Source of the DNA: a virus
Direction: 5' to 3' (one strand)
Virus record (IMG/VR): IMGVR_UViG_3300035670_000250
Coordinates: 1 to 57,193 of that record
DNA length: 57,193 nucleotides
Shown here: one piece after another, positions 2,488 to 56,110 of the stretch
Position numbering within the stretch: position 1 is the stretch's first letter
How the letters are laid out: the number at the start of each line of letters is the position of its first letter
The notes under the pieces: model-generated
What the model saw: the letters and a program-made list of their open reading frames with translations, nothing else
The model's database searches: none
What the model was told of the DNA's origin: nothing
Program-made: the position numbers and the translations under genes

Positions 2488-4299
2488 TTACGCACCCAAT
2501 TCTGTGAAGTTACTGTCCGATCTAGTTGCGACAAAGTTCAATTGAATGAAGTTGATGGAACGATTTGGTTTGATATAGATATCTGCCCAAAACTCGTTTC
2601 TATCAATTCTTTCTGCCGTATTGTTAGATTCGTCACAAACTACCTTGAAATCAATAATTCCTCTTCTTGCCTTGACATCCTTCAGATATGGAGTCACCAA
2701 AGAAACGAACTGTGATCTTGTGAATGGGTCGTTGAATTCGAACAAGGAGAATTTTGCCGCAGTTGCGATTGCCTTCTCCAAGACGATGAACAGTCTACGA
2801 ACATTGATTCTGTCGAATGCACTTGGTTTAGTCAATGCAGTTCTGTCACCGAAGAGGATCGTTCCCTCTCCTGGAGTGGTTATGACTGGGTTGATTCCAT
2901 CGGGATAAAGTTGATCCCTAAATGCCTTGGAGGGATTGAATGCCAACTTTATAACATTTCTGATCTGACCTCTATTGAATCCAGCGGGAGACCACCAAGG
3001 ATCATTTGTGCTATCTGTTCTAGCACACACACCAGCAACGTCTGGGTTTAGTGGAATCCAGCGATAAAGATCGTTGTATGGGTCGTATTGGTACTTATAA
3101 CCCGAGTCGATCACACAATAAGAACTTGAACCTAAAGTTGATTTGAAAGTCAAAGCTCTGTCGAGTTTTGCCTGTTCGGTTTCGATGTCACTCTTGTTTG
3201 CTGGTGAGAAGAATGCAACGCAGTCTTTTCTGTATTCTGCAATCGCCTTGATAGCACCAACACTAGTTGAATCAACAACAGCACCCGATATAAGAAGATT
3301 CACATCATATGATTCTGTATCTTCGAAAAGATTGTATCCATAAGGATCATCACTCGGGACAGTAGTGCTGACCAAATTCGCACTGGTTTGTCCTAAACCA
3401 CCAGCGAGTGGGAATGAAACTCCTCCGTTTGCACGGACTCTCGTTCCACTTGGTCCAGTTGTACCCCAATCTGCGATATATCCATATGTCCCACTATCAG
3501 TAAAACTTAAACCTGTTTGGGTGTAGAAATCAGCGGCAGCATCACCTGGAGTATCTTCCCCACCGATGTAGATATATTGTGATTTTTCGTTAATGTGTCT
3601 CTTGTAGAATACCGTTTCGCCATTTTCAAGTCTTGCTTCTGGGTATACAGAAAGATTCGAGAATCTTTCCAAAATCGTATTTTGCGCCCCTGTGAATAAA
3701 CCGTCTTGATCAATGACCAAAACATGGATTTGGTCATTCGTAGTCAAACTTGCAGCCAATGTTTGAATGTTGGTTGTGTGGTCAGGAGCTCCCTCAGATG
3801 CATATCCAAAGTTAGCATAGTATTCCACGGTTCCTTCGGTCCACGCAGTGAATCCTGCGCTTCCTGTTCCACCGGGTCCTGGGAAAATTGCAACCTTGAG
3901 TGAATCTCCCTTTTGTCCTGGATAACGAGCAAAAATTCCATTGTAGTCGTTGTCGAACAAACTTTCATTTTGGAAAAGTTCTGCTGATGGAACTGTTTGA
4001 CCATCTCCAGTGAAACAACCGACTGCATTCTTTGCATCAGAACCTACAACACGGACAACTTGAAGTGAATTCGTGTAACTTAAGTAATTGAAACCCGAAA
4101 ACCACTGAGCGTAGTTCCAATTCTTGGGATCTCCGAATACTGCTCTATATGATTTTGGCGTATCGATCAAAATCACCTGCTTTGCTGGTCCCCATTCATA
4201 GTTTCCAGCGATACCACCCAAAGAGGTAGCAACTGCTGGGACTATGGTTGTGAGGTCGATTTCCGATACATTTACACCTGGACTGACTTGAAATGCCAT
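2488..4299 (-). CDS. 18: gp18 tail sheath protein, copy A
   Basis: A 603-residue contractile sheath protein (T4 gp18 is 659). The N-terminus MAFQVSPGVNVSEIDLTTI is the inter-subunit linker arm plus start of the conserved sheath fold. The last ~110 residues carry the conserved contractile core, including RINVRRLFIVLEKAI and DRNEFWADIYIKPNRSI. The middle (about residues 100-330) is the variable protruding domain. It is followed by gp19 and preceded by a second, clearly paralogous sheath gene. Both copies share the same 5' flank (GGAGATAGAAAT before ATG), so the ribosome binding site was duplicated too. It is uncertain which copy builds the main sheath. Confidence 0.95.
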   Translation of the reverse strand: MAFQVSPGVNVSEIDLTTIVPAVATSLGGIAGNYEWGPAKQVILIDTPKSYRAVFGDPKNWNYAQWFSGFNYLSYTNSLQVVRVVGSDAKNAVGCFTGDGQTVPSAELFQNESLFDNDYNGIFARYPGQKGDSLKVAIFPGPGGTGSAGFTAWTEGTVEYYANFGYASEGAPDHTTNIQTLAASLTTNDQIHVLVIDQDGLFTGAQNTILERFSNLSVYPEARLENGETVFYKRHINEKSQYIYIGGEDTPGDAAADFYTQTGLSFTDSGTYGYIADWGTTGPSGTRVRANGGVSFPLAGGLGQTSANLVSTTVPSDDPYGYNLFEDTESYDVNLLISGAVVDSTSVGAIKAIAEYRKDCVAFFSPANKSDIETEQAKLDRALTFKSTLGSSSYCVIDSGYKYQYDPYNDLYRWIPLNPDVAGVCARTDSTNDPWWSPAGFNRGQIRNVIKLAFNPSKAFRDQLYPDGINPVITTPGEGTILFGDRTALTKPSAFDRINVRRLFIVLEKAIATAAKFSLFEFNDPFTRSQFVSLVTPYLKDVKARRGIIDFKVVCDESNNTAERIDRNEFWADIYIKPNRSINFIQLNFVATRSDSNFTELGA

Positions 4300-4328: not shown

Positions 4329-6128
4329 TTAAGCACCAACCTCACTAAAACTTGCACCAGTTCTAGTAGCAATGAAGTTCAACTGAATGTAATTGATGGA
4401 ACGATTTGGTTTGATATAGATGTCCGCCCAAAACTCATTTCTGTCAATTCTTTCAGGTGTGTTGTTCGTCTCGTCACAGACTACCTTGAAGTCAATGAGT
4501 CCTCTTCTTGCCTTTACATCGGAAAGGAAGGGAGTCACAAGAGAAACAAATCTTGATCTTGTGAATGAATCGTTGAACTCGAACAACGAATACTTGGATG
4601 CAGTTGCAATCGCCTTCTCAAGAACAATGAACAATCTACGAACATTGATTCTGTCGAATGCACTTGGTTTTTGCAATCCTGTTCTATCACCCAAAAGAAG
4701 AATTCCAGTGTCTTTTTGGAAGATGACCGGATTGATTCCCTTGGGGTACAACCTATCCCTATAGATCTTCGAAGGATTGAACGCAAGAGCTTCTGCGTTT
4801 CTCATGATTCCTCTATTGTATCCTGCCGGAGAAAACCACGCATCATTGGTAAACTCAGTTCTTGCAACCAACCCTGCGGTATCACCATTCAGTGGAATCC
4901 AACGATAAACCAAGTTGTATGGGTCAAACTGTTTCTTATAACCAGAATCTATGAACACATAAGAACTCGATCCAACGTCGTTCTTGAATGCAATGCATCT
5001 ATCTGCCTTTGCACTTTCGGTTGCGTTTGCAGCTACTGAAGCACCAACCTTACCGATGTCACAGGAGAGGAATGCGATACAATCCTTTCTTGTTTCTGCA
5101 ATCTGAACAAGATTTTGAACATCTGAAGCACTGTTGATTCCACCACCGAGAAGAAGATTTACGTCTTCCTTTTCCGCATCGGCAAGAACTTCGTAACCTT
5201 GTTCATCAACATCAAAAAGTGATCCACTTTGTTCTCCCGTTCCACCAGAAAGTGCGATCGTGACATGTGCAGTCGAACCGTAACTAAAGACGTAATCGGT
5301 TTCTGCATCACTGATTCCCGAAACACCCAATCCAGGACCACCGAAAATAGCAGCTGGATAAAAAGCTGTATTATTCAAGTCGTAGTTGTCAACAGCACCA
5401 CCACACTTGATGTATTGTGAGGTGGTATTTATTACGTTCTTGAAGTAATTCGAAGTTCCATCATTCTTTCTTGCCTTGGGATGAAGAGAAACATTCTCGA
5501 ATTTTTCGAGAATTGTGTTCTTAACACCAGAGAAAAGTCCATCTTGATCCAAAACTGCGATATGTACCATATCGTAAGTAGTTGCTCCTGCAATACTTAT
5601 CAGATTATCAGACGATGATGGTGTTCTACCAAAAGCAGACCATATGTCTGAGTATGTGCTTGTTCCTATTGTCCCTTGTGTCCAATTTGAACCTGAAGAA
5701 ACACCATTGGAACCTATCGAAACAGCAAGACTGTTACCCTTTGTTCCTGCATATCTTGAATAAAATCCACCACCATATGTGGTTATATCAACATTGTCAT
5801 TTGGTGCGTAAGACTCCGAATCCCCTGCGGTCTTACCGGCACTGTTTGCGTTTGCAACAGAACCAGTCGCACCCATTGTCCTGACTACCTTGATGCCTTG
5901 AGAATATCCCAAAAAGTTCAAAGTGGTGAAATATTCTTCATAGTTCCACTCCTTGACATCACCAAAAATGTTTCTAAATGTTTTAGGAGTATCGATCAAA
6001 ACTGGGGTATTTGCTGGACCCCACTCAAAGTATCCAGCTATTCCCGCAATCGAAGTTGCTACAGCTGGAACTATGGTTGTTAGATCAATCTCACTTACAT
6101 TTACACCTGGACTGACTTGAAATGCCAT
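4329..6128 (-). CDS. 18: gp18 tail sheath protein, copy B (paralogue)
   Basis: A 599-residue second sheath protein. The first 26 residues are identical to copy A, and by eye the last ~107 residues differ at fewer than 20 positions. The central domain (about residues 90-330) is strongly diverged, with its own Gly/Ser-rich loops. All conserved core motifs (VSEIDLTTIVP, RINVRRLFIVLEKAI, FWADIYIKPNRSI) are intact and there is no frameshift, so it should be functional. Only about 30 bp separates it from copy A. A near-consensus late promoter (AATAAATA) lies about 48 bp upstream of its start. It may form a mixed sheath, provide a variable surface, or replace copy A under some conditions. Confidence 0.93.
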   Translation of the reverse strand: MAFQVSPGVNVSEIDLTTIVPAVATSIAGIAGYFEWGPANTPVLIDTPKTFRNIFGDVKEWNYEEYFTTLNFLGYSQGIKVVRTMGATGSVANANSAGKTAGDSESYAPNDNVDITTYGGGFYSRYAGTKGNSLAVSIGSNGVSSGSNWTQGTIGTSTYSDIWSAFGRTPSSSDNLISIAGATTYDMVHIAVLDQDGLFSGVKNTILEKFENVSLHPKARKNDGTSNYFKNVINTTSQYIKCGGAVDNYDLNNTAFYPAAIFGGPGLGVSGISDAETDYVFSYGSTAHVTIALSGGTGEQSGSLFDVDEQGYEVLADAEKEDVNLLLGGGINSASDVQNLVQIAETRKDCIAFLSCDIGKVGASVAANATESAKADRCIAFKNDVGSSSYVFIDSGYKKQFDPYNLVYRWIPLNGDTAGLVARTEFTNDAWFSPAGYNRGIMRNAEALAFNPSKIYRDRLYPKGINPVIFQKDTGILLLGDRTGLQKPSAFDRINVRRLFIVLEKAIATASKYSLFEFNDSFTRSRFVSLVTPFLSDVKARRGLIDFKVVCDETNNTPERIDRNEFWADIYIKPNRSINYIQLNFIATRTGASFSEVGA

Positions 6129-11000: not shown

Positions 11001-12248
11001 TTAGATGGTTCCGCCTCGTTTTATCAAAGCATCCATAGCAAACTTGTGATTTGCTTCTATTCTCTGCTTCTGATCCTGTGGATACTTGTTCTCTTGGAGT
11101 AGTTTACCAGTGGCGATGTATGCTTCTCGGTATCTTTCGGTCCAGAACGAACAAATTGCATATTCATCCCAAACACCCCAATCGTAAACACTTTGTCCGA
11201 CGAACAAAGCACCTTCGGGATAGTTCAGTGAAATTGCTATCTTTGCATAACGATACCCCTGATCGAAACGGGAGTAGAGACGACAGATTCTTGCAGCTGC
11301 CCAAAGAGGTTCTGCGCGATACGGTGCCATCTGATAGGAGTCGAAGTACACCTTGAGGATTTCGTCGATGGGCTTCCCGAGAATTTCCATGATTCGTCCA
11401 ATTTGGTACTTGGAGTAGAATGCTTCTTCTTGCCACCCACCAAGATCAACTCTCTTTTGATACCACTCAATTGCCTTTTCCCATTGTTGGCAATCACGGT
11501 AACTCTGTGCGAGATAGAAGTGATAACGATTGAAATCCTTCTCTTCCACATTTCCAGATGCAATTGCTTCTTCGAATACCTTTGCGTCGTCTTCGTATTT
11601 CTTGGGGTTCGAAGAACGAGCTCCGTCTTGAATGGGAGTGTTCATAAATCCACGAGCAAAGTCTCGGGTCTCAATTTTTTCTTTGCAGTCAACATATTCG
11701 TGGAGGACACCGCGATAGTAGAATTCCTTCGAATTCGATGTCAACTGTGGGCGATGATACTTGGTGTTTCCGTAGAAAGCAAAAATGTTGTAGATGTCCG
11801 CGACGAGTCCCTTCTTGAATGTGTCGGGATCGAAGTTCGAGTCATAGACAAGAACTTCGTCTGCATCAATCATGAGAGAATAATCTGCCTTGTCTCTTGC
11901 GAGTTCTAGTGCTCTAGAACGATTGGTTCCAAAGTTGACCCAAGGTTCTTCATGTAGTTCGCCGGGAATGCCGACGTTATTGAAGAACTCGCGAATTTTT
12001 TCCTGTGTTCCATCGGTGGAACCAGTGTCTAAGATGACCCAATGGTCAATGACTGGAAGAACGGAAGCGAGGCACCTTTCGATTACCTTCGACTCGTTCT
12101 TGACAATCATGCAGAGTGTAATTGTCTTTTTTTCGGTCAGTGGTTTCTTGGGTTTTGATGGAGTGGGTGGAACACTCAACATCTCGGGTGTGATTATGGT
12201 TGGTTTGTTTTGTGTAGGTTCAATCAAAGAATTCATGACTTCAGGCAT
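11001..12248 (-). CDS. Family 2 glycosyltransferase with C-terminal TPR-like repeats (SunS-like)
   Basis: A 415-residue protein from ATG 12248, chosen because GGAG lies 8 nt upstream; an in-frame start 30 bp earlier would almost touch the late promoter. The GT-A domain has LCMIVKNES near residue 45, the loop DTGSTDGTQ at 74-82, and the DXD-type metal motif MIDADEVL near 126-133. The C-terminal half is helical with TPR-like units (for example YHFYLAQSYRDCQQWEKAIE). This layout matches the SunS / TPR-glycosyltransferase group, which transfers sugar from a nucleotide-sugar donor to proteins or surface glycans. The acceptor is unknown; the neighbouring collagen-like or Cys-rich virion proteins are candidates by inference. 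It is not a T4 core gene and sits between fibre genes and gp13. Confidence 0.85.
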   Translation of the reverse strand: MPEVMNSLIEPTQNKPTIITPEMLSVPPTPSKPKKPLTEKKTITLCMIVKNESKVIERCLASVLPVIDHWVILDTGSTDGTQEKIREFFNNVGIPGELHEEPWVNFGTNRSRALELARDKADYSLMIDADEVLVYDSNFDPDTFKKGLVADIYNIFAFYGNTKYHRPQLTSNSKEFYYRGVLHEYVDCKEKIETRDFARGFMNTPIQDGARSSNPKKYEDDAKVFEEAIASGNVEEKDFNRYHFYLAQSYRDCQQWEKAIEWYQKRVDLGGWQEEAFYSKYQIGRIMEILGKPIDEILKVYFDSYQMAPYRAEPLWAAARICRLYSRFDQGYRYAKIAISLNYPEGALFVGQSVYDWGVWDEYAICSFWTERYREAYIATGKLLQENKYPQDQKQRIEANHKFAMDALIKRGGTI

Positions 12249-12281
12249 ATCAAAATCTCCATTGCAACAAAGGTTCAAATA

Positions 12282-35980: not shown

Positions 35981-35988
35981 TATTTATC
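35981..35988 (-). promoter_or_regulatory. Probable late promoter before short fibre gene
   Basis: The minus strand reads GATAAATA at the end of the preceding gene, one base from the T4 late octamer, 23 bp upstream of ATG 35957, with GAGGA between them. Confidence 0.45.
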
Positions 35989-38900
35989 ACAAGTCGTACT
36001 TGAGATCTGCACCACCTAACCACCCGGTTATTCCCGATGGGTATGAGAAAGAACTTCCTATCAAATATGTGAATGGGATTATTGTCATTGTTCCTGTTCC
36101 TCCTAAAGTGGGAGCACCCAAATCCTTTTCCCATTTCACGTTTGATGGCCAGTTTAGTGTAAGATCGGAACCACCTAAAGTTATGAGTATGAATGATATG
36201 GAATTTCCTGAACTTACTTCACTTGGAGTACCACTGAAACTAAAATATTTAGCTGTTCCTGTGGTTGCATTTGACAAATCCAAGAACTGAAGAGTTCCAT
36301 TTGTTGTGTTTATTTGATAAGAAGTCGAACCAGTGGGACTTCCGTTGTCATACATTTTCTCTTCGAATCTTAAGAAGAACGGTATTTGGTTTATTTGATC
36401 ATATTGTATATCTGAATTATAATAATAGTCTGTCGGGGGGTCAGAAGCGGTGCTACCCAATGCAACACTTGAACTATATGCAAACATTGAAGACAGTCTG
36501 ATTTTCCCCGAAGATAACGTGGTTACATCTTCTGGTGTGTCTATGAATCCTGTTGGTCCTGTGATTCCTTGTCTTCCTTGGTTGCCTTGGAAGCCTTGGA
36601 ATCCTTGGAATCCCTGTGGACCAGTCCCGCCATCTTTTCCTGCTACTCCTGGAGTTCCTGGGAGTCCAATTGGCCCAGTTGGTCCTTGTCTTCCTTGATT
36701 GCCTTGGAAACCTTGAACACCAGTTGGTCCCGTGACTCCTTGTCTTCCTTGGTTGCCTTGGAAACCTTGAACACCAGTTGGTCCTGTGATTCCTTGTCTT
36801 CCTTGATTACCTTGGAATCCTTGGAAGCCTTGAACACCAGTTGGTCCCTTTACGTTTCCAATTTCGACCCCCTGTTGATTGTTTATTTCTACTATTAAAG
36901 TTTCGCCATCTTCATCCAAGTAGAAGAAGAAACTAGATGATGGTCCTTGAGCTCCTTGTAATCCTTGAAGACCTTGGAAACCTTGGAAACCTTGAACACC
37001 CGTTGGTCCAGTGATTCCTTGTCTTCCTTGATTCCCTTGGAAACCTTGAACACCAGCTGGTCCAGTGATTCCTTGTCTTCCTTGATTCCCTTGGAAGCCT
37101 TGAACACCAGCTGGTCCAGTGATTCCTTGTCTTCCTTGATTCCCTTGGAAGCCTTGAGCACCAGTTGGTCCAGTTGATCCCTTAACACTTGATTCCGGAG
37201 TCAAGGAGCCTCCTCCTCTATAAACATATAACTGATCTGTGTCTGTGGTTATGAAAATATCACCTACTTTTACAGTGGTGTCGAGTGATGGATTTGGCAA
37301 ACTACTCGATTTAACTGCTATGGTTTGTGATCCTCTTGCTCCTTCACTACCTGTTCCACCCTTTATATTCCCTTGATATGAGAGAGTGGTTCCTGATCCA
37401 TCCAATTCATAGACATCCCACGACCCCTTTACAATTGATACTCCAAATTCACCACCTTGGAGTTGTGCTAGAGCTTCAGTTGTTGTTTCTGCGGTACTTA
37501 TTGATTTTCCAATTGGCCCCTGAGGCCCCTGAGGCCCTGTAGCACTAAACACATTGACCATAACCCATTGAGAACTATCGTCATCAACAATCCAAGTGAA
37601 TTCACCACCAACATTTGTATTGAACCATTTGGAGCCTGAAGTCACTCCATCTGATTCTTGTGGTGCAGTTGGCCCTATGAAATACTTTCCTGAACCAGCA
37701 GGACCAGTGACTCCTTGGAAACCTTGGAACCCTTGAAATCCTTGGAAGCCTTGGAAGCCTTGAAGACCTTGGAATCCTTGAAGACCTTGGAAACCTTGGA
37801 AACCTTGGAAGCCTTGGAATCCCTGTGGACCAGTCCCGCCGTCTTTTCCTGCTACTCCTGGAGTTCCTGGAAGTCCAATTGGTCCAGTTGGTCCTTGTCT
37901 TCCTTGATTGCCTTGGAAACCTTGTAAGCCTTGGAATCCTTGGAATCCTTGGAATCCTTGGAATCCTTGGAAGCCTTGGAAGCCTTGAACACCAGTTGGT
38001 CCTGTAATTCCTTGTCTTCCTTGATTTCCTTGGAAGCCTTGGAATCCCTGTGGACCAGTCCCACCATCTTTTCCTGCTACTCCTGGAGTTCCTGGAAGTC
38101 CAATTGGTCCAGTTGGTCCAGTTGGTCCTTGTCTTCCTTGATTGCCTTGGAATCCTTGTAAGCCTTGGAATCCTTGGAAGCCTTGGAAGCCTTGGAAGCC
38201 TTGAACACCAGTTGGTCCTGTAATTCCTTGTCTTCCTTGATTTCCTTGGAAGCCTTGGAATCCCTGAAATCCTTGATTTCCAGTTCCACCACCAAGTGGT
38301 CCCTGTGGTCCAGTGGCACTGAAAACATTCACCATGACCCACTGAGAACTATCATCATCAACAATCCAAGTGAACTCACCACCAACATTCGTGTTGAACC
38401 ATTTGGAGCCTGAAGTGACTCCGTCTGATTCTTGTGGTGCAGTTGGCCCTATGAAATACTTTCCTGAACCAGCAGGACCAGTGACTCCTTGAAGACCTTG
38501 ATTTCCTTGGAAGCCTTGGGTGCCGGTTGGTCCCGTGATTCCTTGTCTTCCTTGGTTGCCTTGGAAGCCTTGGAATCCTTGGAATCCCTGTGGACCAGTC
38601 CCACCATCTTTTCCTGCTACTCCTGGAGTTCCTGGAAGTCCAATTGGTCCAGTTGGTCCTTGTCTTCCTTGATTGCCTTGGAAGCCTTGGAAGCCTTGGA
38701 AGCCTTGAAAGCCCTGTGATCCAACTCCAGTTGTAATTTCCACCCAAGAAGATCCAGTGAATCCATAAAATTTAGAATCATCTAGATTGAATACTATGGT
38801 TCCTCTTTGATATTCCTCCGAAGCATCAAGAAGTATTTTAAATTGATTGTCAACAATATCGTAATTGACAATGTCGTTTACTCCCCAACCAGCAGTAGAA

Positions 38901-39112
38901 CCGAATCCCGAGTCTATTGAAGAAAGATTTTGAATTATATAACTACTGCTAGTAGATCCCGTCACTGGAACAAGTAGATCATCCGTTTGTATGCCATTTA
39001 CTTTAAAATTTATATCCGAAGAATCTAGCAGTGAAAAGTATGATTCGTTGCTAAATGATGCTTCTCTTCCAAGTTGTTTAATCTTGTTGATTAGTTCTAT
39101 GAATTGACTCAT
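35987..39112 (-). CDS. Long collagen-like tail fibre protein
   Basis: A 1041-residue protein. N-terminal domain (about 1-125, with SLLDSSDINFKVNGIQ and SKFYGFTGSSWVEI) is shared with the next two genes. It is followed by several Gly-X-Y segments rich in GFQ, NQG and GPTG, interrupted by two copies of a compact module (KYFIGPTAPQESDG...GSKWFNTNVGGEFTW), a GTTLSYQGNIKGGTG region, an SSFFFYLDEDG segment, and a unique C-terminal head (about 890-1041) ending GGADLKYDL. Its start overlaps the stop of the upstream fibre gene (ATGA). The long collagen-like shaft suggests a side-fibre or whisker-like adhesin. Confidence 0.78.
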   Translation of the reverse strand: MSQFIELINKIKQLGREASFSNESYFSLLDSSDINFKVNGIQTDDLLVPVTGSTSSSYIIQNLSSIDSGFGSTAGWGVNDIVNYDIVDNQFKILLDASEEYQRGTIVFNLDDSKFYGFTGSSWVEITTGVGSQGFQGFQGFQGFQGNQGRQGPTGPIGLPGTPGVAGKDGGTGPQGFQGFQGFQGNQGRQGITGPTGTQGFQGNQGLQGVTGPAGSGKYFIGPTAPQESDGVTSGSKWFNTNVGGEFTWIVDDDSSQWVMVNVFSATGPQGPLGGGTGNQGFQGFQGFQGNQGRQGITGPTGVQGFQGFQGFQGFQGLQGFQGNQGRQGPTGPTGPIGLPGTPGVAGKDGGTGPQGFQGFQGNQGRQGITGPTGVQGFQGFQGFQGFQGFQGFQGLQGFQGNQGRQGPTGPIGLPGTPGVAGKDGGTGPQGFQGFQGFQGFQGLQGFQGLQGFQGFQGFQGFQGFQGVTGPAGSGKYFIGPTAPQESDGVTSGSKWFNTNVGGEFTWIVDDDSSQWVMVNVFSATGPQGPQGPIGKSISTAETTTEALAQLQGGEFGVSIVKGSWDVYELDGSGTTLSYQGNIKGGTGSEGARGSQTIAVKSSSLPNPSLDTTVKVGDIFITTDTDQLYVYRGGGSLTPESSVKGSTGPTGAQGFQGNQGRQGITGPAGVQGFQGNQGRQGITGPAGVQGFQGNQGRQGITGPTGVQGFQGFQGLQGLQGAQGPSSSFFFYLDEDGETLIVEINNQQGVEIGNVKGPTGVQGFQGFQGNQGRQGITGPTGVQGFQGNQGRQGVTGPTGVQGFQGNQGRQGPTGPIGLPGTPGVAGKDGGTGPQGFQGFQGFQGNQGRQGITGPTGFIDTPEDVTTLSSGKIRLSSMFAYSSSVALGSTASDPPTDYYYNSDIQYDQINQIPFFLRFEEKMYDNGSPTGSTSYQINTTNGTLQFLDLSNATTGTAKYFSFSGTPSEVSSGNSISFILITLGGSDLTLNWPSNVKWEKDLGAPTLGGTGTMTIIPFTYLIGSSFSYPSGITGWLGGADLKYDL
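36998..37159 (-). repeat. 54-bp tandem repeats in collagen-like shaft
   Basis: Three nearly identical 54-bp units start at 36998, 37052 and 37106, with a fourth beginning at 37160. Each encodes one block of 18 residues (GFQGNQGRQGITGPxGVQ). The unit is a multiple of the 9-bp triplet block, so unit gain or loss keeps frame. Confidence 0.85.
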
Positions 39113-41937
39113 GTTACTTCAACCTGAATATTCGAAGCTGTGAATTTATTTGATGATCTATATATTTCATAATTGGTAATATAGCCAAACTCGTTGGTGT
39201 GTGATGCTTCTGATGCTATATTTATGAACCCTCCTCCAAACCCATTTACCTTGAAGGTAGGTGTTCCTGTGTAAGTTGATGGGTAAGCATAATAAATGTA
39301 TTGGTCACTAGCATCCACTTCAAAGGAATGTGACAAATTGGTGTCCAAAACTTTAGAAAGAGAAGTCAGGCCAACAGCGCCCAACGAAGGACTGGAATCT
39401 ACTCCATAATAATTAGGCCTTCTAAACAGAAAATTTAGTGACTTTGTTGCCGTTTCTTCAACACCTGAAGATGCTGTGCTGGATAAAGTGAATGTCACGG
39501 TCGCTGTTGGGTTTGCTGAAGCTGGATATGCAAAAGTCAATCCATTTGCATTCAAACTGGTGTATGGACTTGACAATTCAACTGGAAAATCTTCTGAGCT
39601 GACTCCTGATATGCTTATTGAGGCATAATTTACTTGTGTGATACTTGGCGAATATGTCGCCGAAAAACTGTCTGTTAGAGTATAGGAACCACTTCCTATT
39701 TCTAGTATTTGTTGTGTACTTCCATCGTATAAAAATGTTGATACCTTAAATTGATCAAATATGTCTGTGGTTCTAAGGTAATCAAAAGTCAAAGAACCAT
39801 CGTTTAATAAAAGTGGTATTTTTCTTCCTGATCCACTGACAGATCCAATCGCAGTGTAATTTATAGAGTTTCCTGTTATGGTGTTTGTTTCATAAGTTCT
39901 ATCAAACAGACCATCCCCTGTTTCTCCCTTGGGACCAGTGTTTCCTTGGAAACCCTGAAATCCCTGAAATCCTTGATTTCCAGTTCCACCACCAAGTGGT
40001 CCCTGTGGCCCTGTAGCACTAAACACATTGACCATGACCCATTGGGAACTATCATCATCAACAATCCAAGTGAACTCACCACCGACATTAGTGTTGAACC
40101 ATTTGGAGCCTGAAGTCACTCCATCTGATTCTTGTGGTGCAGTTGGTCCTATAAAATACTTTCCTGAACCAGCAGGACCAGTGACTCCTTGGAAACCTTG
40201 GAACCCTTGAAATCCTTGGAAGCCTTGAACACCAGTTGGTCCTGTGATTCCTTGTCTTCCTTGATTGCCTTGGAAGCCTTGGAACCCCTGAAATCCCTGA
40301 ACACCAGTTGGTCCCTTTACGTTTCCAATTTCGACCCCTGGTTGATTGTTTATTTCTACTATTAAGGTTTGACCATCTTCATCTAAGTAGAAGAAGAAAC
40401 TAGACGATGGTCCTTGAACTCCTTGGAATCCTTGGAGGCCTTGAAGTCCTTGGAATCCTTGGAAACCTTGAAGTCCTTGGAAACCTTGGAAGCCTTGAGT
40501 ACCAGTCGGTCCTGTAATTCCTTGACTTCCCTGATTGCCCTGAAATCCCTGAAATCCTTGATTTCCAGTTCCACCACCAAGTGGTCCCTGTGGCCCAGTT
40601 GCACTGAAGACGTTGACCATGACCCATTGAGAACTATCATCATCAACAATCCAAGTGAACTCACCACCGACATTTGTGTTGAACCATTTGGAACCAGCTG
40701 TGACTCCAGTAACAGGGGGCTCAGAACCTATAAAATAATCATTTTTTGATATTGTTATCTTAGCGGCAGTTCCCCCGCCTTCAAAAGTCCCACCAATTGC
40801 TATTCCATAACCCTCAGCAAATGTTATAAGATTCGTGGTGTATAATGAAATAAATTGATTTGATCCATCTAAATTTCTAGTGGCTACAAATGGCCAAACT
40901 GCTGGACCTTCTGGACCTGTATTTCCTTGAATGCCTTGAAATCCTTGAACACCAGTTGGTCCTGTGATTCCTTGGTTTCCTTGATTGCCTTGGAAGCCTT
41001 GAACACCAGTTGGTCCTGTGATTCCTTGGTTTCCTTGATTGCCTTGGAAGCCTTGAACACCAGTTGGTCCTGTGATTCCTTGGTTTCCTTGATTGCCTTG
41101 GAAGCCTTGAAATCCTGTTGGTCCTGTTATTCCTTGTCTTCCTTGATTTCCTTGGAAGCCTTGGAAGCCTTGGAAGCCTTGAAGTCCCTGAAAACCTTGG
41201 AAACCAGTCGATCCTTCCCCAGCACCAGCTGGTCCCTGTGGCCCAGTTGCACTGAAGACGTTGACCATGACCCACTGAGAACTATCATCATCAACAATCC
41301 AAGTGAACTCACCACCGACATTCGTGTTGAACCATTTGGAACCAGCTGTGACTCCGTCTGATTCTTGTGGTGCAGTTGGTCCTATGAAATATTTTCCTGA
41401 ACCAGCAGGACCAGTGACTCCTTGGAAACCTTGGAATCCTTGAACACCAGTTGGTCCTGTGATTCCTTGTCTTCCTTGATTTCCTTGGAAGCCTTGGAAT
41501 CCTTGGAACCCCTGAAATCCTTGGAAGCCTTGAAGTCCGGTTCCCCCCGATCCAACTCCCAATTCCTCCCAAGAATTGCCGTTGAACCCATAAAATTTGG
41601 AATCGCCTTCATTAAATACAATGGTTCCAGCTTGTTTATTTTCTGGATTTGAAGCATCTAGAAAAACTTGATACTGTGCGGAAGCTCCATTGAACCACAA
41701 AATATCATTGTTTCCCCAATCAGATGTGTTTCCAGTAAAACCAGAATGCAAATCACCGACATTTCTTACAATGTAACGATACCCATCAGTTGTTCCGGGA
41801 TCAAATGTTCCGTCCTCTTGAATTCCCTGAATTCGAAAATCAATATCCGAGGAATCGACAACATGAAAGAAATCACCCGTAGTTATGGTGTTATTTCTAT
41901 TCTTTTGCTTTAAAATATCGATTAATATTGTTGCCAT
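39109..41937 (-). CDS. Long collagen-like tail fibre protein, paralogue
   Basis: A 942-residue protein with the shared N-terminal domain (VVDSSDIDFRIQGIQEDGTF..., SKFYGFNGNSWEEL), multiple collagen-like segments, three copies of the GSKWFNTNVGGEFTW module (one preceded by a different DYFIGSEPP..GVT start), and a C-terminal head (about 690-942) that ends with NYYGVDSSP...IYYAYPSTY...ITNYEIYRSS. This head is paralogous to the heads of the next two genes. It is preceded by AGAAAT with no strong SD and a possible late octamer only 6 bp from ATG. Likely an adhesin fibre. Confidence 0.78.
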   Translation of the reverse strand: MATILIDILKQKNRNNTITTGDFFHVVDSSDIDFRIQGIQEDGTFDPGTTDGYRYIVRNVGDLHSGFTGNTSDWGNNDILWFNGASAQYQVFLDASNPENKQAGTIVFNEGDSKFYGFNGNSWEELGVGSGGTGLQGFQGFQGFQGFQGFQGNQGRQGITGPTGVQGFQGFQGVTGPAGSGKYFIGPTAPQESDGVTAGSKWFNTNVGGEFTWIVDDDSSQWVMVNVFSATGPQGPAGAGEGSTGFQGFQGLQGFQGFQGFQGNQGRQGITGPTGFQGFQGNQGNQGITGPTGVQGFQGNQGNQGITGPTGVQGFQGNQGNQGITGPTGVQGFQGIQGNTGPEGPAVWPFVATRNLDGSNQFISLYTTNLITFAEGYGIAIGGTFEGGGTAAKITISKNDYFIGSEPPVTGVTAGSKWFNTNVGGEFTWIVDDDSSQWVMVNVFSATGPQGPLGGGTGNQGFQGFQGNQGSQGITGPTGTQGFQGFQGLQGFQGFQGLQGLQGFQGVQGPSSSFFFYLDEDGQTLIVEINNQPGVEIGNVKGPTGVQGFQGFQGFQGNQGRQGITGPTGVQGFQGFQGFQGFQGVTGPAGSGKYFIGPTAPQESDGVTSGSKWFNTNVGGEFTWIVDDDSSQWVMVNVFSATGPQGPLGGGTGNQGFQGFQGFQGNTGPKGETGDGLFDRTYETNTITGNSINYTAIGSVSGSGRKIPLLLNDGSLTFDYLRTTDIFDQFKVSTFLYDGSTQQILEIGSGSYTLTDSFSATYSPSITQVNYASISISGVSSEDFPVELSSPYTSLNANGLTFAYPASANPTATVTFTLSSTASSGVEETATKSLNFLFRRPNYYGVDSSPSLGAVGLTSLSKVLDTNLSHSFEVDASDQYIYYAYPSTYTGTPTFKVNGFGGGFINIASEASHTNEFGYITNYEIYRSSNKFTASNIQVEVT
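40951..41112 (-). repeat. 54-bp tandem repeats in second collagen-like shaft
   Basis: Three units start at 40951, 41005 and 41059, nearly perfect, encoding GFQGNQGNQGITGPTGVQ. A fourth, more diverged unit follows. Units differ from those at 37 kb mainly by NQG in place of RQG. Confidence 0.85.
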
Positions 41938-41943
41938 ATTTCT

Positions 41944-41951
41944 TATTTATT
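41944..41951 (-). promoter_or_regulatory. Weak late promoter candidate near fibre start
   Basis: The minus strand reads AATAAATA only 6 bp before ATG 41937. If used, the transcript would be leaderless or nearly so. It may also be chance in AT-rich DNA. Confidence 0.3.
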
Positions 41952-41955
41952 TTGA

Positions 41956-43953
41956 TTAACTGACTGTTATCGTGGTCCCCGCTCCCAGACCAGTTTGTGT
42001 ACTTCTGTATATGTGGTATTTTTCCACATAATTGTTTGCGTTCGTGTGTGTTGAACCGCCAAAATCATGAACAGCGTTAAATTCAACCACATTTGTACCG
42101 AAGAAAAAGTCGGGAGATCCGGCACTATCTTCATATCTTTTCGGAAAAGCAAAAAATATGTATTGTCCTTCCGATGGACTTACTGTGAAACTCGTTGCAT
42201 AATTGTTGTCTAGATAACCAGTGAATAAATCCAAATCTTCTCCATTCACTGACGAAGATGCCGTGACACCATAATAATTATATTGTTTAAATCTTATGTC
42301 AAAATCTGCGGTATCGTTTGAACTACCTGAAGTGACAGAAAGTCTTATAGTTGCAGTGGCAATTCCGTTACTGAAAGAAGTTGGGTAAGATATTCCCGCG
42401 CCACTTGGGAAATTGGTGTCTGTTGCTCCACTCATGTCGAAAGGAAATCCACTGCTTCCCAATGAAGTTACTAAGTTAACGACAGAATTGTCTATAGGAG
42501 AATCTTCAGGAACAAATGTGAATTGAACATTTTTTCCCCCAACGTCAAAGGTTCCTGTTCCGATTAGGTAATCTTTTCCCCCCGAAGTATTATCAAATTT
42601 GAAGGTAGAAACAGTGAAAAGAGGAACCAAATCTGAAGTTCTCATGTAATCAAAAGTTAAAGAACCATCGTTTAATAAAATTGGTATTTTTCTAGCAGAC
42701 CCTGTGACAGTTCCTAGAGTGGAATAATTTATTGTATTTGTTTTTTCTGTTCCTGTTGCATAATTAGTATCGAACAACCCGTTTCCAGTTGGGCCCTGTA
42801 AACCCTGAAACCCTTGAAAACCTTGGAAACCTTGGAAACCAGTTGATCCTTCCCCAGCACCAGCTGGTCCCTGTGGTCCAGTTGCACTGAAGACGTTGAC
42901 CATGACCCACTGAGAACTATCATCATCAACAATCCAAGTGAATTCACCACCAACATTCGTGTTGAACCATTTGGATCCAGCTGTAACTCCATCTGATTCT
43001 TGTGGTGCAGTTGGTCCTATGAAATATTTTCCTGAACCAGCAGGACCAGTGACTCCTTGAAGTCCTTGATTTCCTTGAAAGCCTTGAAGACCTTGGAATC
43101 CTTGAAGACCTTGGAATCCTTGAAGACCTTGGAAACCTTGAAGACCTTGAAGACCTTGGAAGCCTTGGAAGCCTTGGAAGCCTGTTGCTCCCATGATTCC
43201 TTGATTGCCCTGAAAGCCTTGGAATCCCTGATTGCCTTGGAATCCCTGATTGCCTTGGAATCCCTGATTGCCTTGGAATCCCTGATTGCCTTGGAATCCC
43301 TGATTGCCTTGGAATCCTTGGAAACCCTGAAATCCTTGATTTCCAGTTCCACCACCAAGTGGTCCCTGTGGTCCAGTGGCACTGAAGACGTTGACCATGA
43401 CCCATTGGGAACTATCATCATCGACAATCCAAGTGAACTCACCACCGACATTAGTGTTGAACCATTTGGAGCCTGAAGTCACTCCATCTGATTCTTGTGG
43501 TGCAGTTGGTCCTATAAAATACTTTCCTGAACCAGCAGGACCAGTGACTCCTTGGAAGCCCTGGGAACCAGTTCCGCCAGATCCCACTCCTAGTTCTAAC
43601 CACTGACTCCCATCAAACCCATAAAACTTGGAATCTCCTTCGTTGAATACTATCACTCCACTTTGTTTATTGGATGCATCTAATAAAATTTCGTAGGAGG
43701 TGCCGTTGTAACGAACTATATCGTTGTCACCCCAGTCAGAAGTATTTCCTGTAAAATTTGGATGAAGATTGCTGACATCTCTCAAGATATAACGATAATC
43801 GTTTGTGGTTCCAGGATCTAATGATGCATCCTCTTGAATTCCCTGAACTTTAAAATTGATATCAGATGAATCTAATAGGAAAAAGAAATCAGGAGTATCA
43901 ATGGTGTTACTCCGATTTTGTTGTTTTACTGTACTAATTACTGTTATTGACAT
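41956..43953 (-). CDS. Collagen-like tail fibre protein, paralogue
   Basis: A 665-residue protein. It has the shared N-terminal domain (FLLDSSDINFKVQGIQEDAS, SKFYGFDGSQWLEL), a GFQGVTGPAGSG linker, two GSKWFNTNVGGEFTW modules, a long collagen-like tract between them rich in GFQGNQ and GLQ, and the C-terminal head (about 405-665) with QYNYYGVTASSS, YIFFAFPKRY and NNYVEKYHIYRST. Head and N-terminal domain are shared with its neighbours, but the shaft is shorter. Spacing to both neighbours is about 20 bp. Likely a receptor-binding fibre. Confidence 0.78.
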   Translation of the reverse strand: MSITVISTVKQQNRSNTIDTPDFFFLLDSSDINFKVQGIQEDASLDPGTTNDYRYILRDVSNLHPNFTGNTSDWGDNDIVRYNGTSYEILLDASNKQSGVIVFNEGDSKFYGFDGSQWLELGVGSGGTGSQGFQGVTGPAGSGKYFIGPTAPQESDGVTSGSKWFNTNVGGEFTWIVDDDSSQWVMVNVFSATGPQGPLGGGTGNQGFQGFQGFQGNQGFQGNQGFQGNQGFQGNQGFQGNQGFQGFQGNQGIMGATGFQGFQGFQGLQGLQGFQGLQGFQGLQGFQGLQGFQGNQGLQGVTGPAGSGKYFIGPTAPQESDGVTAGSKWFNTNVGGEFTWIVDDDSSQWVMVNVFSATGPQGPAGAGEGSTGFQGFQGFQGFQGLQGPTGNGLFDTNYATGTEKTNTINYSTLGTVTGSARKIPILLNDGSLTFDYMRTSDLVPLFTVSTFKFDNTSGGKDYLIGTGTFDVGGKNVQFTFVPEDSPIDNSVVNLVTSLGSSGFPFDMSGATDTNFPSGAGISYPTSFSNGIATATIRLSVTSGSSNDTADFDIRFKQYNYYGVTASSSVNGEDLDLFTGYLDNNYATSFTVSPSEGQYIFFAFPKRYEDSAGSPDFFFGTNVVEFNAVHDFGGSTHTNANNYVEKYHIYRSTQTGLGAGTTITVS
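43221..43310 (-). repeat. Five exact 18-bp tandem repeats
   Basis: The 18-bp unit GGAATCCCTGATTGCCTT occurs five times without a mismatch, at 43221, 43239, 43257, 43275 and 43293. It encodes alternating GFQ and GNQ triplets. Identity even at synonymous positions shows very recent expansion. Confidence 0.92.
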
Positions 43954-43972
43954 TTACTTTTTCCACTTTTTC

Positions 43973-45223
43973 CTAACTCACGACAACCGTTGTGCTTCCC
44001 AAACCAGTTTCGTCTGATCTATATATTCTGTATTTTTCCAAATAATTATTTGCGTTCGCATGTGTTTCGCCGGAACCAGCAACTTCAGCAAAACCCCCAG
44101 CAAATCCACCCACGGTGAAAGTAGCTTCTCCATAATCTTGTGGATATGCGTAATATATGTATTCACCGGAAGAAGCATTTATAGAGAAAGTTTTTACTCT
44201 AGAAGTTAGTAGTTCTTTGCTTCCAAAATTATCGGCGAGATTAATCAAGTCGCCCACTGTTATGCCTGAATTTGCAGTGACACCCCAATAATTATACTGT
44301 CTAAATGATATTGTGTCGGTCGCTGTATCAGAAGAACCATCTGAAGCTGTTGCAGTTATGGTGAATGTTATTGTAGTATTTTTTGAAGCTGGATAATCAA
44401 TGGAAGTGCCATTTGCAGAGATAGATATATACGGAGAAGAAAGGGAAAGGGGGTATCCAGTGTTGGTGGTATCCACACTTATAGAAGCAGCAACAACATT
44501 CAATATAACTGGAGTGTAGGAAGCTGTGAATGTTCTCCCTGTCAAAGACAGTGAACCGGAAGGGGCAATCAAAACCGATGCAGCTCCACTCAAAACAAAA
44601 GAGGAAACAGTGAACGTGTTAAACAAGTCTGTTGTTTTGATATAATCGAAAGTCAATGAACCATCGTCTAATAGAACAGGAAATTTTCTTCCAGTTCCAG
44701 TGACAGTTCCTATTGTATTATAATTTATACTATTTGATATACTAGTTCCAGTGACATAAGTAGCTTCGAATATTCCTGGACCAGTAGCGCCTTGAACACC
44801 AGTTGGTCCAGTGTCTCCTGTTCCTTGAAATCCCTGATAGCCTTGATATCCTTGAAATCCTTGATAACCCTGATTTCCAATAGAACCAGGAACACCGGCG
44901 GGACCAGGAGGACCGACTGAACCAGCTGGACCTGTCGGACCTTGAAATCCTTGAACACCAGTTGGTCCGGTGACTCCACTTCCCGAACCGTCGCCCGACC
45001 CTGCCGGACCTTGAAATCCTTGAAATCCTATTGGACCAGTCGGTCCTGCTACAACTTCAACATCTGGAGTTATGGTCGTGGGGGTTATAGCTGGAACGAA
45101 ATCCGAGGAAGTAAGTGGAATAGCGCCAGTCCCTATGATTTCATAAGGCCTGGTGGTATTACCAGATATTTTGGTGAATACTTGTTGTGGTGTGGGTACA
45201 GTTGTTTTTTTGTTTATTTTCAT
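43973..45223 (-). CDS. Collagen-like tail fibre protein, shortest paralogue
   Basis: A 416-residue protein. N-terminal domain is different from the other three (MKINKKTTVPTPQQVFTK, with ITPTTITPDVEVVAGPTG), followed by a short collagen-like tract with GPPGPAGVPGS and GYQGFQGYQG blocks, and the same C-terminal head type (QYNYWGVTANSG, EYIYYAYPQDY, NNYLEKYRIYRSDE). It overlaps the gp5 stop as ATGA. Its distinct N-terminus near gp5 could mean a different docking site on the baseplate. Confidence 0.75.
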   Translation of the reverse strand: MKINKKTTVPTPQQVFTKISGNTTRPYEIIGTGAIPLTSSDFVPAITPTTITPDVEVVAGPTGPIGFQGFQGPAGSGDGSGSGVTGPTGVQGFQGPTGPAGSVGPPGPAGVPGSIGNQGYQGFQGYQGYQGFQGTGDTGPTGVQGATGPGIFEATYVTGTSISNSINYNTIGTVTGTGRKFPVLLDDGSLTFDYIKTTDLFNTFTVSSFVLSGAASVLIAPSGSLSLTGRTFTASYTPVILNVVAASISVDTTNTGYPLSLSSPYISISANGTSIDYPASKNTTITFTITATASDGSSDTATDTISFRQYNYWGVTANSGITVGDLINLADNFGSKELLTSRVKTFSINASSGEYIYYAYPQDYGEATFTVGGFAGGFAEVAGSGETHANANNYLEKYRIYRSDETGLGSTTVVVS

Positions 45224-52493: not shown

Positions 52494-52508
52494 TTATAGG
52501 AGATCGAA

Positions 52509-53234
52509 ATGGCTTTACCAAAAATTGGGGTTCCGTACTATTCGTTGAAGTTGGTGTCAGGAAAAAACATTCAATTCAGACCCTTTACGGTCAAGGAAGA
52601 AAAGATTCTTCTTCTTGCAAATGAAAGCAAGAATCAGAAAAACATTTCCAATGCAATCAAGAATGTTTTGAATTCTTGCATCATGCAGGAAGAGGGAAAT
52701 CCGCCTATAAATGTCGAGGAACTTCCAGTTTTTGACGTTGAATTGCTGTTTTTGCACATAAGAATGAAGTCTGTCGGTGAATATAGTGAATTTAAGTATA
52801 AGTGTGAGGAATGCGAAGGTTCACCGGAAGTTTCTACTAGACTAGACCTTAGAAATATAATTGTAGAGAATAATGATAAGAAAAAAGAAACTAAGCTCAT
52901 GTTGACCAAAGAGGTGGGGGTGGAACTTAGATATCCTCCGTTCAAGGTTCTTTTGAAAAATGAAAACTCCAGCAAAGAAAAGGATCCCTTTTCCGCACTG
53001 GAAATCATAAAAGATTGTATAGTTTCGGTTTTCGATGCAAATCAGGTATACCAAAGGAAGGATTTCACCGACCAAGATTTGAATGAATTTATAGAATCAT
53101 TGACACAAGATCAAATGTTGAAGATCAATTCATTCTTTGAAGACATGCCTAAATTGACTTATAACTTGGAGGTTGAATGTCCATGTGGTTTGGTTTCCTC
53201 CAAGAAACTGAGTGGAATCGCTGATTTTTTCTGA
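52509..53234 (+). CDS. 26: gp26-like baseplate hub assembly protein / tape-measure chaperone
   Basis: A 241-residue protein (T4 gp26 is 208) starting MALPKIGVPYYSLKL after AGGAG. The N-terminal pattern (IQFRPFTVKEEKILLLA) marks the T4 gp26 baseplate protein family. Cys pairs at residues 99/102 (CEEC) and 224/226 (CPC) may form a zinc-binding site. In other tails the protein encoded just before the tape measure is its chaperone. The gene ends GAT TTT TTC TGA, with the heptamer T TTT TTC in the right phase for -1 slippage into the next ORF. The shifted product would be 305 residues. Confidence 0.85.
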   Translation: MALPKIGVPYYSLKLVSGKNIQFRPFTVKEEKILLLANESKNQKNISNAIKNVLNSCIMQEEGNPPINVEELPVFDVELLFLHIRMKSVGEYSEFKYKCEECEGSPEVSTRLDLRNIIVENNDKKKETKLMLTKEVGVELRYPPFKVLLKNENSSKEKDPFSALEIIKDCIVSVFDANQVYQRKDFTDQDLNEFIESLTQDQMLKINSFFEDMPKLTYNLEVECPCGLVSSKKLSGIADFF

Positions 53235-53327
53235 TTAGTTTCCTCTATATGGACTTGGAAAATTATTTTAAGTTGAACTTCAATCTGATGCATGATCATA
53301 AGTTCTCCTTGGAATCTATAGAGGAAA
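53225..53327 (+). promoter_or_regulatory. Candidate programmed -1 frameshift signal (slippery site plus stem)
   Basis: T TTT TTC at 53225-53231 is a canonical X XXY YYZ slippery heptamer in frame with gp26, with the stop TGA at 53232. After a 7-nt spacer, TTTCCTCTATA (53239-53249) pairs perfectly with TATAGAGGAAA (53317-53327), an 11-bp stem with a 67-nt loop. Inside the loop, GAACTT (53275-53280) and AAGTTC (53300-53305) form a second stem. The -1 frame has no stop before ATG 53249, which has no SD sequence and lies in the stem. Confidence 0.7.
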
Positions 53328-53425
53328 TGATGCCTTGGGAGAGGGATGTTTACCTGATTTTATTGAAACAGTGGATCGAGGAAGAAAACAAACGGTTGGA
53401 AAAACAAAGATCAAAATATAAATAA
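53249..53425 (+). CDS. Short tape-measure chaperone ORF (probably made by -1 frameshift)
   Basis: A 58-codon ORF from ATG 53249 to TAA 53423-53425, reading MDLENYFKLNFNLMHDHKFS and onward, with SIEEMMPWERDVYLILLKQW and a charged tail ending RSKYK. The PWERDVYL motif and size match the short second chaperone ORF upstream of tape-measure genes in several phages. It lies in the -1 frame relative to gp26, no SD precedes its ATG, and the frame is open back to the gp26 slippery site, so the main product is likely a gp26-fusion. The late promoter for the tape measure overlaps its stop. Confidence 0.7.
   Translation: MDLENYFKLNFNLMHDHKFSLESIEEMMPWERDVYLILLKQWIEEENKRLEKQRSKYK
53417..53424 (+). promoter_or_regulatory. 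T4-type late promoter before the tape measure
   Basis: The plus strand reads TATAAATA across the stop codon of the short ORF. It is 34 bp before the TTG start of the tape measure gene, and GGGGG lies between them. It would give the tape measure its own transcript, separating its dosage from that of the chaperones. Confidence 0.7.
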
Positions 53426-53458: not shown

Positions 53459-56110
53459 TTGGCAATAGATCCACAAGACAAGAACCTAGACGATCTGACA
53501 AAAAACTCAGAAAGTGCCTCCAAAAGCGCCAAAAATGCATCTAATGCTGCAAACAGAGCAGCCAAAAGTGCGAAAGAAGCGGCTGAAAGTAGTAAACAGT
53601 CAGCAAGTTTTACCGAAGAATCATCCAAAACCGTTGTAAATTTGGTTTCTGAAAATTCTTCTGCTATCAGAAATCTGATAACCACTGTCAGAGAAGAAAA
53701 TCAAAGAATTGAAACTCAAGAAACCGAGACTAACACAAATCAAGAAACTCCCGAATCCGAAACCCCCGAAGCAGAAACTCAACCTGTTGTTGATGCTATA
53801 TCCACTTTACTTCCCAATTTAAATTCGTATATTAATGCTCAAAGTGGAGTTTTAGATGCAATGGAAAATGACTTAAATTACCAAAAAGAATCATTAGTTC
53901 TTTTTGGTGGAATGGATAAAGTCAATAAAAAACTACTAGATGTTGAAATTGAGGCGAACAAGAGTCAAAAAATAGCTTTGCTAAAACAGGAGCAAATACT
54001 TTTAGATCAATTGGCAGAATTTGAAAAAATGAGAGAAGAATTGTCTCCCGAAGATCAATTGAAAGTCCAAAAACAACTTTCCGACGCGATAACAAATTTA
54101 TCTAAAAAGAAAGAAGAAGTCAAGAGTAGGGGAGAAGAATTAGAAACGGCTAGAAAAGAAAACAGACTATTCAAAAGATTGGAAAAGACTTTTGAAGATT
54201 TGTCTGAGAAAATTGCTAATGTCAGGGAAAAGACATCCTTAGTAAGTAAGATACTTTTGGGTGTATTTTTAGTCGGATTGGCAATTTACAGAGGACTCAT
54301 AAGCCCTCAAACTATAGGAAAAATACTTGGTTTCATACTTGAAATGCTTTGGGAAGGGATAAAAGTTCTCACTTCAATTGTCACCAAATTAATCTATATG
54401 GCAGTGGATGGTTTTTTCAGTTGGCTTGAAAGTACATTCATAGGATCATTGATCAAGGGATTTGGGGTTTTGGGTGGTGTGCTGAATATTTTTAAGATAT
54501 TCGGAAAACTATCTGGTCCTCTTGCTGCCTTGAGCACAGGAATTAATTATGCGTTTGGGATAATGGGAAAGATTATAGGATATGTTTTTAAGATACTATC
54601 ATTCCTCCCGACAATCGGGAATTTTTTCGCCCCGTTAGTCAATTTTTTCGGATTCATAGCAAAATTGGCACCACTAGCAAAAGCTATTCCCGTCGTAGGT
54701 CAAATTTTGACTATAGTTTTTGCTGTTGTAGATGCTATTCGTGGATTCGTTCGTGGGTTCAGTGGTCCCGATGGGAGTTTCATGAAAGGACTCCGTGGCG
54801 CGCTATCCATGATCATCTCTGGTCTTACTTTTGGGTTATTAGACTTTGATATAATAGATGGATTCCTAGCAGATTTCTTCGGTGCTATAGGGGACTTCTT
54901 TGTATTTCTATGGGACAACATATCAGCTTACTACAATTTCCTGTGGAATGTAATAAAGGCTCCTTTTGTTGCAATTGGAGAATTTTTCTCTGATTTTTGG
55001 AAAATAATATGGGATAGTGACAAGACTTTGACGGAGAAAATTGGTGCTATATTTGATGCATGGATGTCTGCTATTTCCAACATGTTTGCAAACATTTGGA
55101 AAGCTATTAAGAATTTTGGTTTTACTTTGATTGGAATATGGAAACCCATAACACTATTTTTTATGGATATTGTACCTATGATTTGGGATTATGTAAAAAC
55201 AATACCTGGGTTGTTGTTTGACGGGTTAAAATTTATGTTTATGGATTTTCCGATGATGATTTGGGATTATGTAAAAACAATACCTAGGTTGTTGTTTGAC
55301 GGGTTAAAATTTATGTTTATGGATTTTCCGATAATGATTTGGGATGGGATTAAAAGTATATTTAGTTCTATATTTTCAGCTGCTAAGGATATATTTGGAA
55401 CTGCTGTGTCTTGGATATCCGACACAATATTCTCTTTAGTAAAAAGTGTTGGCAATATCGGTAAGGCAATATGGAATTCTTTGATGGGATTGGTGAAGGG
55501 CGTACTGAAAGCAATATTAGACTATGTTCCGAATTGGGCAATACCACAAAGTGTTTATGATTTTGTCTATGGGGATGGTGGGGACTCCCCCGAATCAACT
55601 AGCACAGGATCCAAAAGTTCTTCTCCCACGGAAGTCATGGCAGAAGAAGTTTCTCAATTGTCTGATATTTTTTCTATAGAAATGACTAAAATAACAGAGG
55701 GATTTCTTTCGGCATTCGCAGCCGCTATGGCCACATTCACGAAACCGAAAGAAGAAGAGAAAAGTCTTTCCGAAAAGATGATGGACTATTTTGGTCCTAG
55801 ACAAATTGCTCCCACCATGAGTGTTCAAGAAACAATCGGTATAGTGGAGAAGGATCCTATGCATAGACTTTCTGACTTGATAGAATCTGGCAATGTGAAC
55901 CTTTCCCCCAATCAAATGGAACAACTTTACCTAGCTTTTAAAGAACAAAAAGAAATGGCAGAAGCAGAAAAACAACAAAGAATGGTCACTGCAATTACAA
56001 ACACCAACAATAATGTAGTGAACAACAATTACGCTGGTGAAACTGTCATCAGACCAACCAAAGCAGTAGATCCCTCTTCAAGTAGACTGCGAAGTAGACA
56101 TACCATATAA
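53459..56110 (+). CDS. 29: Tail tape measure protein
   Basis: An 883-residue protein with a TTG start 7 nt after GGGGG; no ATG occurs in frame until residue 140. The N-terminal 60 residues are Ala/Ser/Lys-rich (SASKSAKNASNAANRAAKSA), followed by coiled-coil segments (about 140-260). The central part (about 265-640) has many hydrophobic segments, typical of tape measures that insert into the membrane during infection. Residues about 574-625 hold two nearly identical 26-residue repeats. The C-terminus ends VDPSSSRLRSRHTI after an Asn-rich stretch. T4 gp29 has 590 residues; at 1.5 A per residue, 883 gives an upper tail length near 130 nm. Confidence 0.88.
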   Translation: MAIDPQDKNLDDLTKNSESASKSAKNASNAANRAAKSAKEAAESSKQSASFTEESSKTVVNLVSENSSAIRNLITTVREENQRIETQETETNTNQETPESETPEAETQPVVDAISTLLPNLNSYINAQSGVLDAMENDLNYQKESLVLFGGMDKVNKKLLDVEIEANKSQKIALLKQEQILLDQLAEFEKMREELSPEDQLKVQKQLSDAITNLSKKKEEVKSRGEELETARKENRLFKRLEKTFEDLSEKIANVREKTSLVSKILLGVFLVGLAIYRGLISPQTIGKILGFILEMLWEGIKVLTSIVTKLIYMAVDGFFSWLESTFIGSLIKGFGVLGGVLNIFKIFGKLSGPLAALSTGINYAFGIMGKIIGYVFKILSFLPTIGNFFAPLVNFFGFIAKLAPLAKAIPVVGQILTIVFAVVDAIRGFVRGFSGPDGSFMKGLRGALSMIISGLTFGLLDFDIIDGFLADFFGAIGDFFVFLWDNISAYYNFLWNVIKAPFVAIGEFFSDFWKIIWDSDKTLTEKIGAIFDAWMSAISNMFANIWKAIKNFGFTLIGIWKPITLFFMDIVPMIWDYVKTIPGLLFDGLKFMFMDFPMMIWDYVKTIPRLLFDGLKFMFMDFPIMIWDGIKSIFSSIFSAAKDIFGTAVSWISDTIFSLVKSVGNIGKAIWNSLMGLVKGVLKAILDYVPNWAIPQSVYDFVYGDGGDSPESTSTGSKSSSPTEVMAEEVSQLSDIFSIEMTKITEGFLSAFAAAMATFTKPKEEEKSLSEKMMDYFGPRQIAPTMSVQETIGIVEKDPMHRLSDLIESGNVNLSPNQMEQLYLAFKEQKEMAEAEKQQRMVTAITNTNNNVVNNNYAGETVIRPTKAVDPSSSRLRSRHTI
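55178..55333 (+). repeat. 78-bp tandem duplication in the tape measure gene
   Basis: Two units (55178-55255 and 55256-55333) are nearly identical, and a third partial unit follows. Each encodes 26 residues with FDGLKFMFMDFP. If helical, 26 residues span about 39 A, close to one tail-tube ring (about 4 nm). Confidence 0.9.

Follow-up and report, generated by a model that had tools for sequence, protein, structure and literature searches.

A predicted programmed -1 frameshift joins gp26 to a gp51 domain in a T4-like phage

At the end of gene 26 of an uncultured T4-like phage, a programmed -1 frameshift very probably yields two tail assembly chaperones, a short form (TAC-N) and a long form (TAC-NC), that would organize the tape measure protein. 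The DNA analyzed, hereafter the window, is an IMG/VR fragment of 57,193 nucleotides in which portal, terminase, tail sheath and gp5-type hub lysozyme were matched, as befits a T4-like phage. A sequence-only reading of this DNA had proposed a frameshift of the lambda G/GT type joining gp26 to a C-terminal domain, and comparative evidence now supports that proposal well, through the sequence signals and their conservation, selection on the -1 frame and family identity. The features concerned are as follows.

52498-52502, + strand: Shine-Dalgarno sequence of gp26, AGGAG (sequence)
52509-53234, + strand: gp26, predicted short tail assembly chaperone (TAC-N), 241 aa, 0 frame (PF12322, phrog_150)
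53225-53231, + strand: slippery heptamer T TTT TTC (sequence; T TTT TTN in 47/48 representative relatives)
53231-53425, + strand: extension read in the -1 frame, 64 codons and stop; C-terminal domain of gp51 (TAC-C) (phrog_634; pS/pN against L002)
53232-53234, + strand: 0-frame stop TGA, directly 3' of the heptamer (sequence)
53232-53238, + strand: 7-nt spacer between heptamer and stem (sequence)
53239-53249, + strand: 5' arm of an 11-bp stem, likely stimulator (RNA fold; synonymous recodings)
53265-53315, + strand: weaker helix within the loop, arms 53265-53280 and 53300-53315, 75% complementary
53317-53327, + strand: 3' arm of the stem (same sequence in L001 and L002; degraded in L003-L007)
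53459-56110, + strand: tape measure protein, presumed client (phrog_58 tail length tape measure, E 1.7e-19)

Family searches matched gp26 to PF12322 (T4_baseplate, E 3e-58) and phrog_150 (E 1.5e-63), making TAC-N a member of the gp26 family. A search of NCBIfam gave no match, and the gp26 profile found no relevant match among the sequences of solved structures. An AlphaFold model of gp26 (pLDDT 86.7) was compared with 350,542 PDB chains, where the first and second ranks both went to the HK97 tail assembly chaperone 2ob9 at non-significant E values (0.77 and 1.1); the resemblance of the modeled fold to the HK97 chaperone is suggestive only. The gene ends in GCT GAT TTT TTC TGA, and its heptamer, of the X XXY YYZ type, lies in the phase that fits tandem -1 slippage, TTT TTC becoming TTT TTT. 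Base-level inspection bore out the claimed T TTT TTC in -1 phase with TGA next to it and, together with arm complementarity, the claimed 7-nt spacer and perfect 11-bp stem. Across the 36 genes of the window there are 108 in-frame heptamers of slippery type, only 3 of them in the final ten codons of their gene; that of gp26 is the sole U-type heptamer so placed.

In the -1 frame, 64 codons are open after the heptamer (53231-53422) and a stop follows at 53423-53425, giving a predicted fusion of 305 aa (TAC-NC). These numbers agree with the earlier claim of a 305-residue product read through a 58-codon ORF upstream of the tape measure. Just 33 bases separate the end of this ORF (53425) from the tape measure start (53459), so that the gp26/-1 ORF pair sits directly upstream of the tape measure gene. 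The extension matched phrog_634, the 'baseplate hub assembly catalyst' gp51 (E 4.7e-24), and also the C-terminus of phrog_150. T4 gp51 matches the same family, and alignment likewise showed the gp51 C-terminus to be homologous to the -1-frame domain. Over the first 56 codons of the -1 frame, comparison with the relative L002 gave a pS of 0.60 versus a pN of 0.06, a pattern from which the extension is judged to be under purifying selection. A Pfam match of the -1 ORF to Stealth_CR2 (E 0.0013) fell below its curated cut-off and was disregarded.

For comparison across relatives, 80 viral contigs and individually read cultured phages provided 90 usable loci, which were reduced to 48 representatives less than 80% identical. 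The set includes cyanophages, Pelagibacter phages (HTVC008M and Mosig), KVP40, Aeromonas phage AS-zj, Cronobacter phage S13, Stenotrophomonas phage YB07 and a Rhizobium phage. The overlap between the 0 and -1 frames holds the in-phase T TTT TTN in all representatives but one (47/48), and T TTT TTY in 45/48; the T TTT TTY form occurs at 3/52 of the Phe-Phe pairs elsewhere in these genes. The heptamer was thus kept when checked across relatives, as the sequence-only reading had proposed should be done. Its presence at the gp26 end is not a matter of chance, conserved as it is in nearly all relatives. Beyond it the -1 frame is open for 52-78 codons in relatives, throughout which a conserved domain motif, HxxL...F.LMQHHKYS..EIExMxPWERDIYV, was found. 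The two frames are split in the same way in all 90 loci, drawn from cultured phages and from independent contigs, which refutes a sequencing or assembly error as the cause of the split; we found no point in favor of that explanation and give it a negligible probability.

Several junctions deviate from this pattern. Locus L061 and the near-identical L062, L064, L066 and L068 read TCG TTT TTT TAA, with G TTT TTT in place of T TTT TTY; slippage there would require a P-site slip beside the stop codon. Outside the 48 representatives, the canonical heptamer is absent from the junctions of Vibrio phage Kuja (L087), D531 (L089), Aeromonas phage TSW001 (L095) and Vibrio phage YC (L096), all of which keep the -1 ORF; Kuja and YC are classed as Ackermannviridae. 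The YC junction reads GCT TTC ATG TAA TG. In these four the shift may take place at a different site, or the ORF may be reached by termination-reinitiation.

Could the short ORF of the window be an independent 58-aa gene, gp51, translated from the ATG at 53249, for example by termination-reinitiation? The ATG is in frame, 15 nt past the start of the gp26 stop codon, and many public annotations draw separate short gp51 genes. However, the ATG of this 58-codon ORF has no Shine-Dalgarno sequence upstream (gattagtttcctctat ATG), the conserved heptamer would be left unexplained, and T4 encodes gp51 as a fusion. Moreover, in 22/47 representatives the first ATG, GTG or TTG lies 14 to 43 codons inside the conserved -1 domain; because the first start codon comes so late, separate initiation cannot make the start of the domain in those relatives. 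An independent gene is therefore very unlikely. The earlier account of the ATG was right about the missing Shine-Dalgarno sequence, whereas its placement within the stem applies to the first base only. The late start codons also account for gp51 being annotated as truncated in public records, such as those of S-RIM50 and P-SSM7, since the first possible start codon falls inside the domain. The 'baseplate hub assembly catalyst' that looks truncated in many phage annotations is a domain probably made there only as a frameshift fusion, and the practical gain from recognizing this is a corrected gp26/gp51 annotation for cyanophages and their relatives.

Seven nt past the heptamer, within the 5-9 nt at which a stimulatory structure is expected, the window RNA can form a stem of 11 bp whose arms are 100% complementary and enclose a loop of 67 nt. 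The segment folds at -23.9 kcal/mol (z -1.98 versus dinucleotide shuffles), and 0/3000 synonymous recodings that kept the -1-frame amino acids gave an 11-bp stem anchored 4-10 nt after the heptamer. The exact stem is kept in close relatives only. Checking its conservation, as the sequence-only reading had advised, gave a divided answer: both arms are identical in L001 and L002, but in L003-L007 they are degraded and pair in part. No compensatory change was seen among these sequences that would amount to covariation for the window stem. Scanning the window for Rfam families and tRNAs gave zero matches. Across the family, the 85 nt of RNA beginning at +4 past the heptamer exceeded synonymous recodings in stability in most representatives, with a mean z of -2.13 (n=47), whereas control windows in the gp26 body had a mean z of -0.56 (sd 1.04, n=141). 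This extra stability downstream of the junction is good but not final evidence for a family-wide RNA element, because the control is based on codon frequencies only. Many relatives share a stem that begins 7-8 nt past the heptamer and pairs with a strand near +62; in the window and L002 the partner is at +95.

A different route to the same fusion would be RNA polymerase slippage on the T run, with one U added or two lost. Runs of six to nine T at the junction of some relatives are compatible with such a process, but in the window only six T precede a C, the phase fits a tandem codon slip in every case, and the structure 6-8 nt downstream is of use to ribosomal slippage and is not needed transcriptionally. 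Transcriptional slippage is accordingly rated even less probable than an independent gp51 gene.

We favor ribosomal frameshifting, and for the window phage we infer the slippage itself, its efficiency and the chaperone role. Most ribosomes would read gp26 and terminate at the TGA at 53232, producing the 241-aa TAC-N. A minority would pause at the downstream hairpin and slip back one base at U UUU UUC, where both tRNA-Phe would re-pair with UUU UUU; translation of 64 more codons in the -1 frame would then produce the 305-aa TAC-NC bearing the gp51 domain. TAC-N and TAC-NC would coat or organize the adjoining tape measure and, as with lambda gpG and gpGT, would be absent from the virion.

T4 itself has a different arrangement. 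Its genes 26 (208 aa) and 51 (249 aa) are read from opposite strands, and their products share families PF12322 and phrog_150 with the window pair. T4 gp51 spans the whole fused family (phrog_150 positions 13-280 of 282, E 2.6e-84; PF12322, E 3.9e-52) and corresponds to the full long form, whereas T4 gp26 matches the N-terminal part of the family only. Thus, T4 has a gene for the fused protein. Unlike the window phage, T4 makes its short and long forms from separate genes and has no slippery heptamer: the Phe pair in gp26 of T4 and RB69 (KEFFELL end) and of a Klebsiella relative (KEFFKVIQ) is encoded by the non-slippery TTC TTT. On these comparisons, T4 can be regarded as a natural control in which the long form has its own gene and the slippery site is gone. 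In a phylogenetic tree, T4-type gp26 and gp51 group together with support (94/81) below the strong threshold, a grouping in line with gene duplication. A T4 review places gp26 and gp51 among the hub assembly chaperones and describes gp51 as needed yet missing from the final particle (PMC3004832). We consider the chances about even that the family as a whole has an RNA stimulator some 7-8 nt past the heptamer with a lineage-specific partner (about +62 in many, +95 in the window clade), and that heptamer and stimulator both disappeared from the T4 lineage once the gene had been duplicated into short (gp26) and long (gp51) copies.

Judged from sequence, T4-like phages have in the gp26/gp51 frameshift their counterpart of lambda G/GT, a TAC-N/TAC-NC system. 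The slippery heptamer of lambda G/GT is G GGA AAG; that of the window is T TTT TTC, followed by a hairpin, and the family searches run here showed no sequence homology between the two systems. A T4-like phage would nonetheless have the same short/long chaperone device as lambda, for tails of set length. The principle of frameshifting in T4-like phages is already published, and the earlier statement that nothing had been described for gp26 of this group is outdated, being preceded by Vladimirov et al. 2022 (PMC12846349, PMC10885494). As those two papers summarize it, Vladimirov, Gautam & Davidson (2022, Virology 566:9-15) identified the genes for tail assembly chaperones in phages of the T4-like group. 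The Adele paper (2025, PMC12846349) credits them with poly-T -1 slippery sequences in T4-like TAC-N genes, and the PRFect paper (PMC10885494) relays from the same work that some T4-like phages have short and fused-long chaperone genes instead of frameshifting. An earlier review had called the G-T frameshift widely conserved 'except T4' (PMC5009743). The phage group, the genes and the poly-T -1 site of that 2022 set, as these sources present them (PMC12846349, PMC10885494), are those of the window, which differs in being an uncultured IMG/VR fragment. The tail chaperone of Vandenendeviridae and Andersonviridae, as outlined in the Adele paper (PMC12846349), likewise has a conserved poly-T -1 site and a -1 frame open up to the tape measure, but the site is a GTTTTT motif and the phage lineage is another one.

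Elsewhere in the window, two adjacent genes on the - strand (2488-4299 and 4329-6128) both matched phrog_23 tail sheath (E 5e-128 and 1e-114) and are tandem paralogs. A gene at 11001-12278 (- strand), inside the structural gene block, matched phrog_13126 beta-1,4-glycosyltransferase (E 1.6e-25). Finally, a run of four genes at 35987-45223 (- strand) showed repetitive, multi-stretch matches to collagen-like and tail fiber families.
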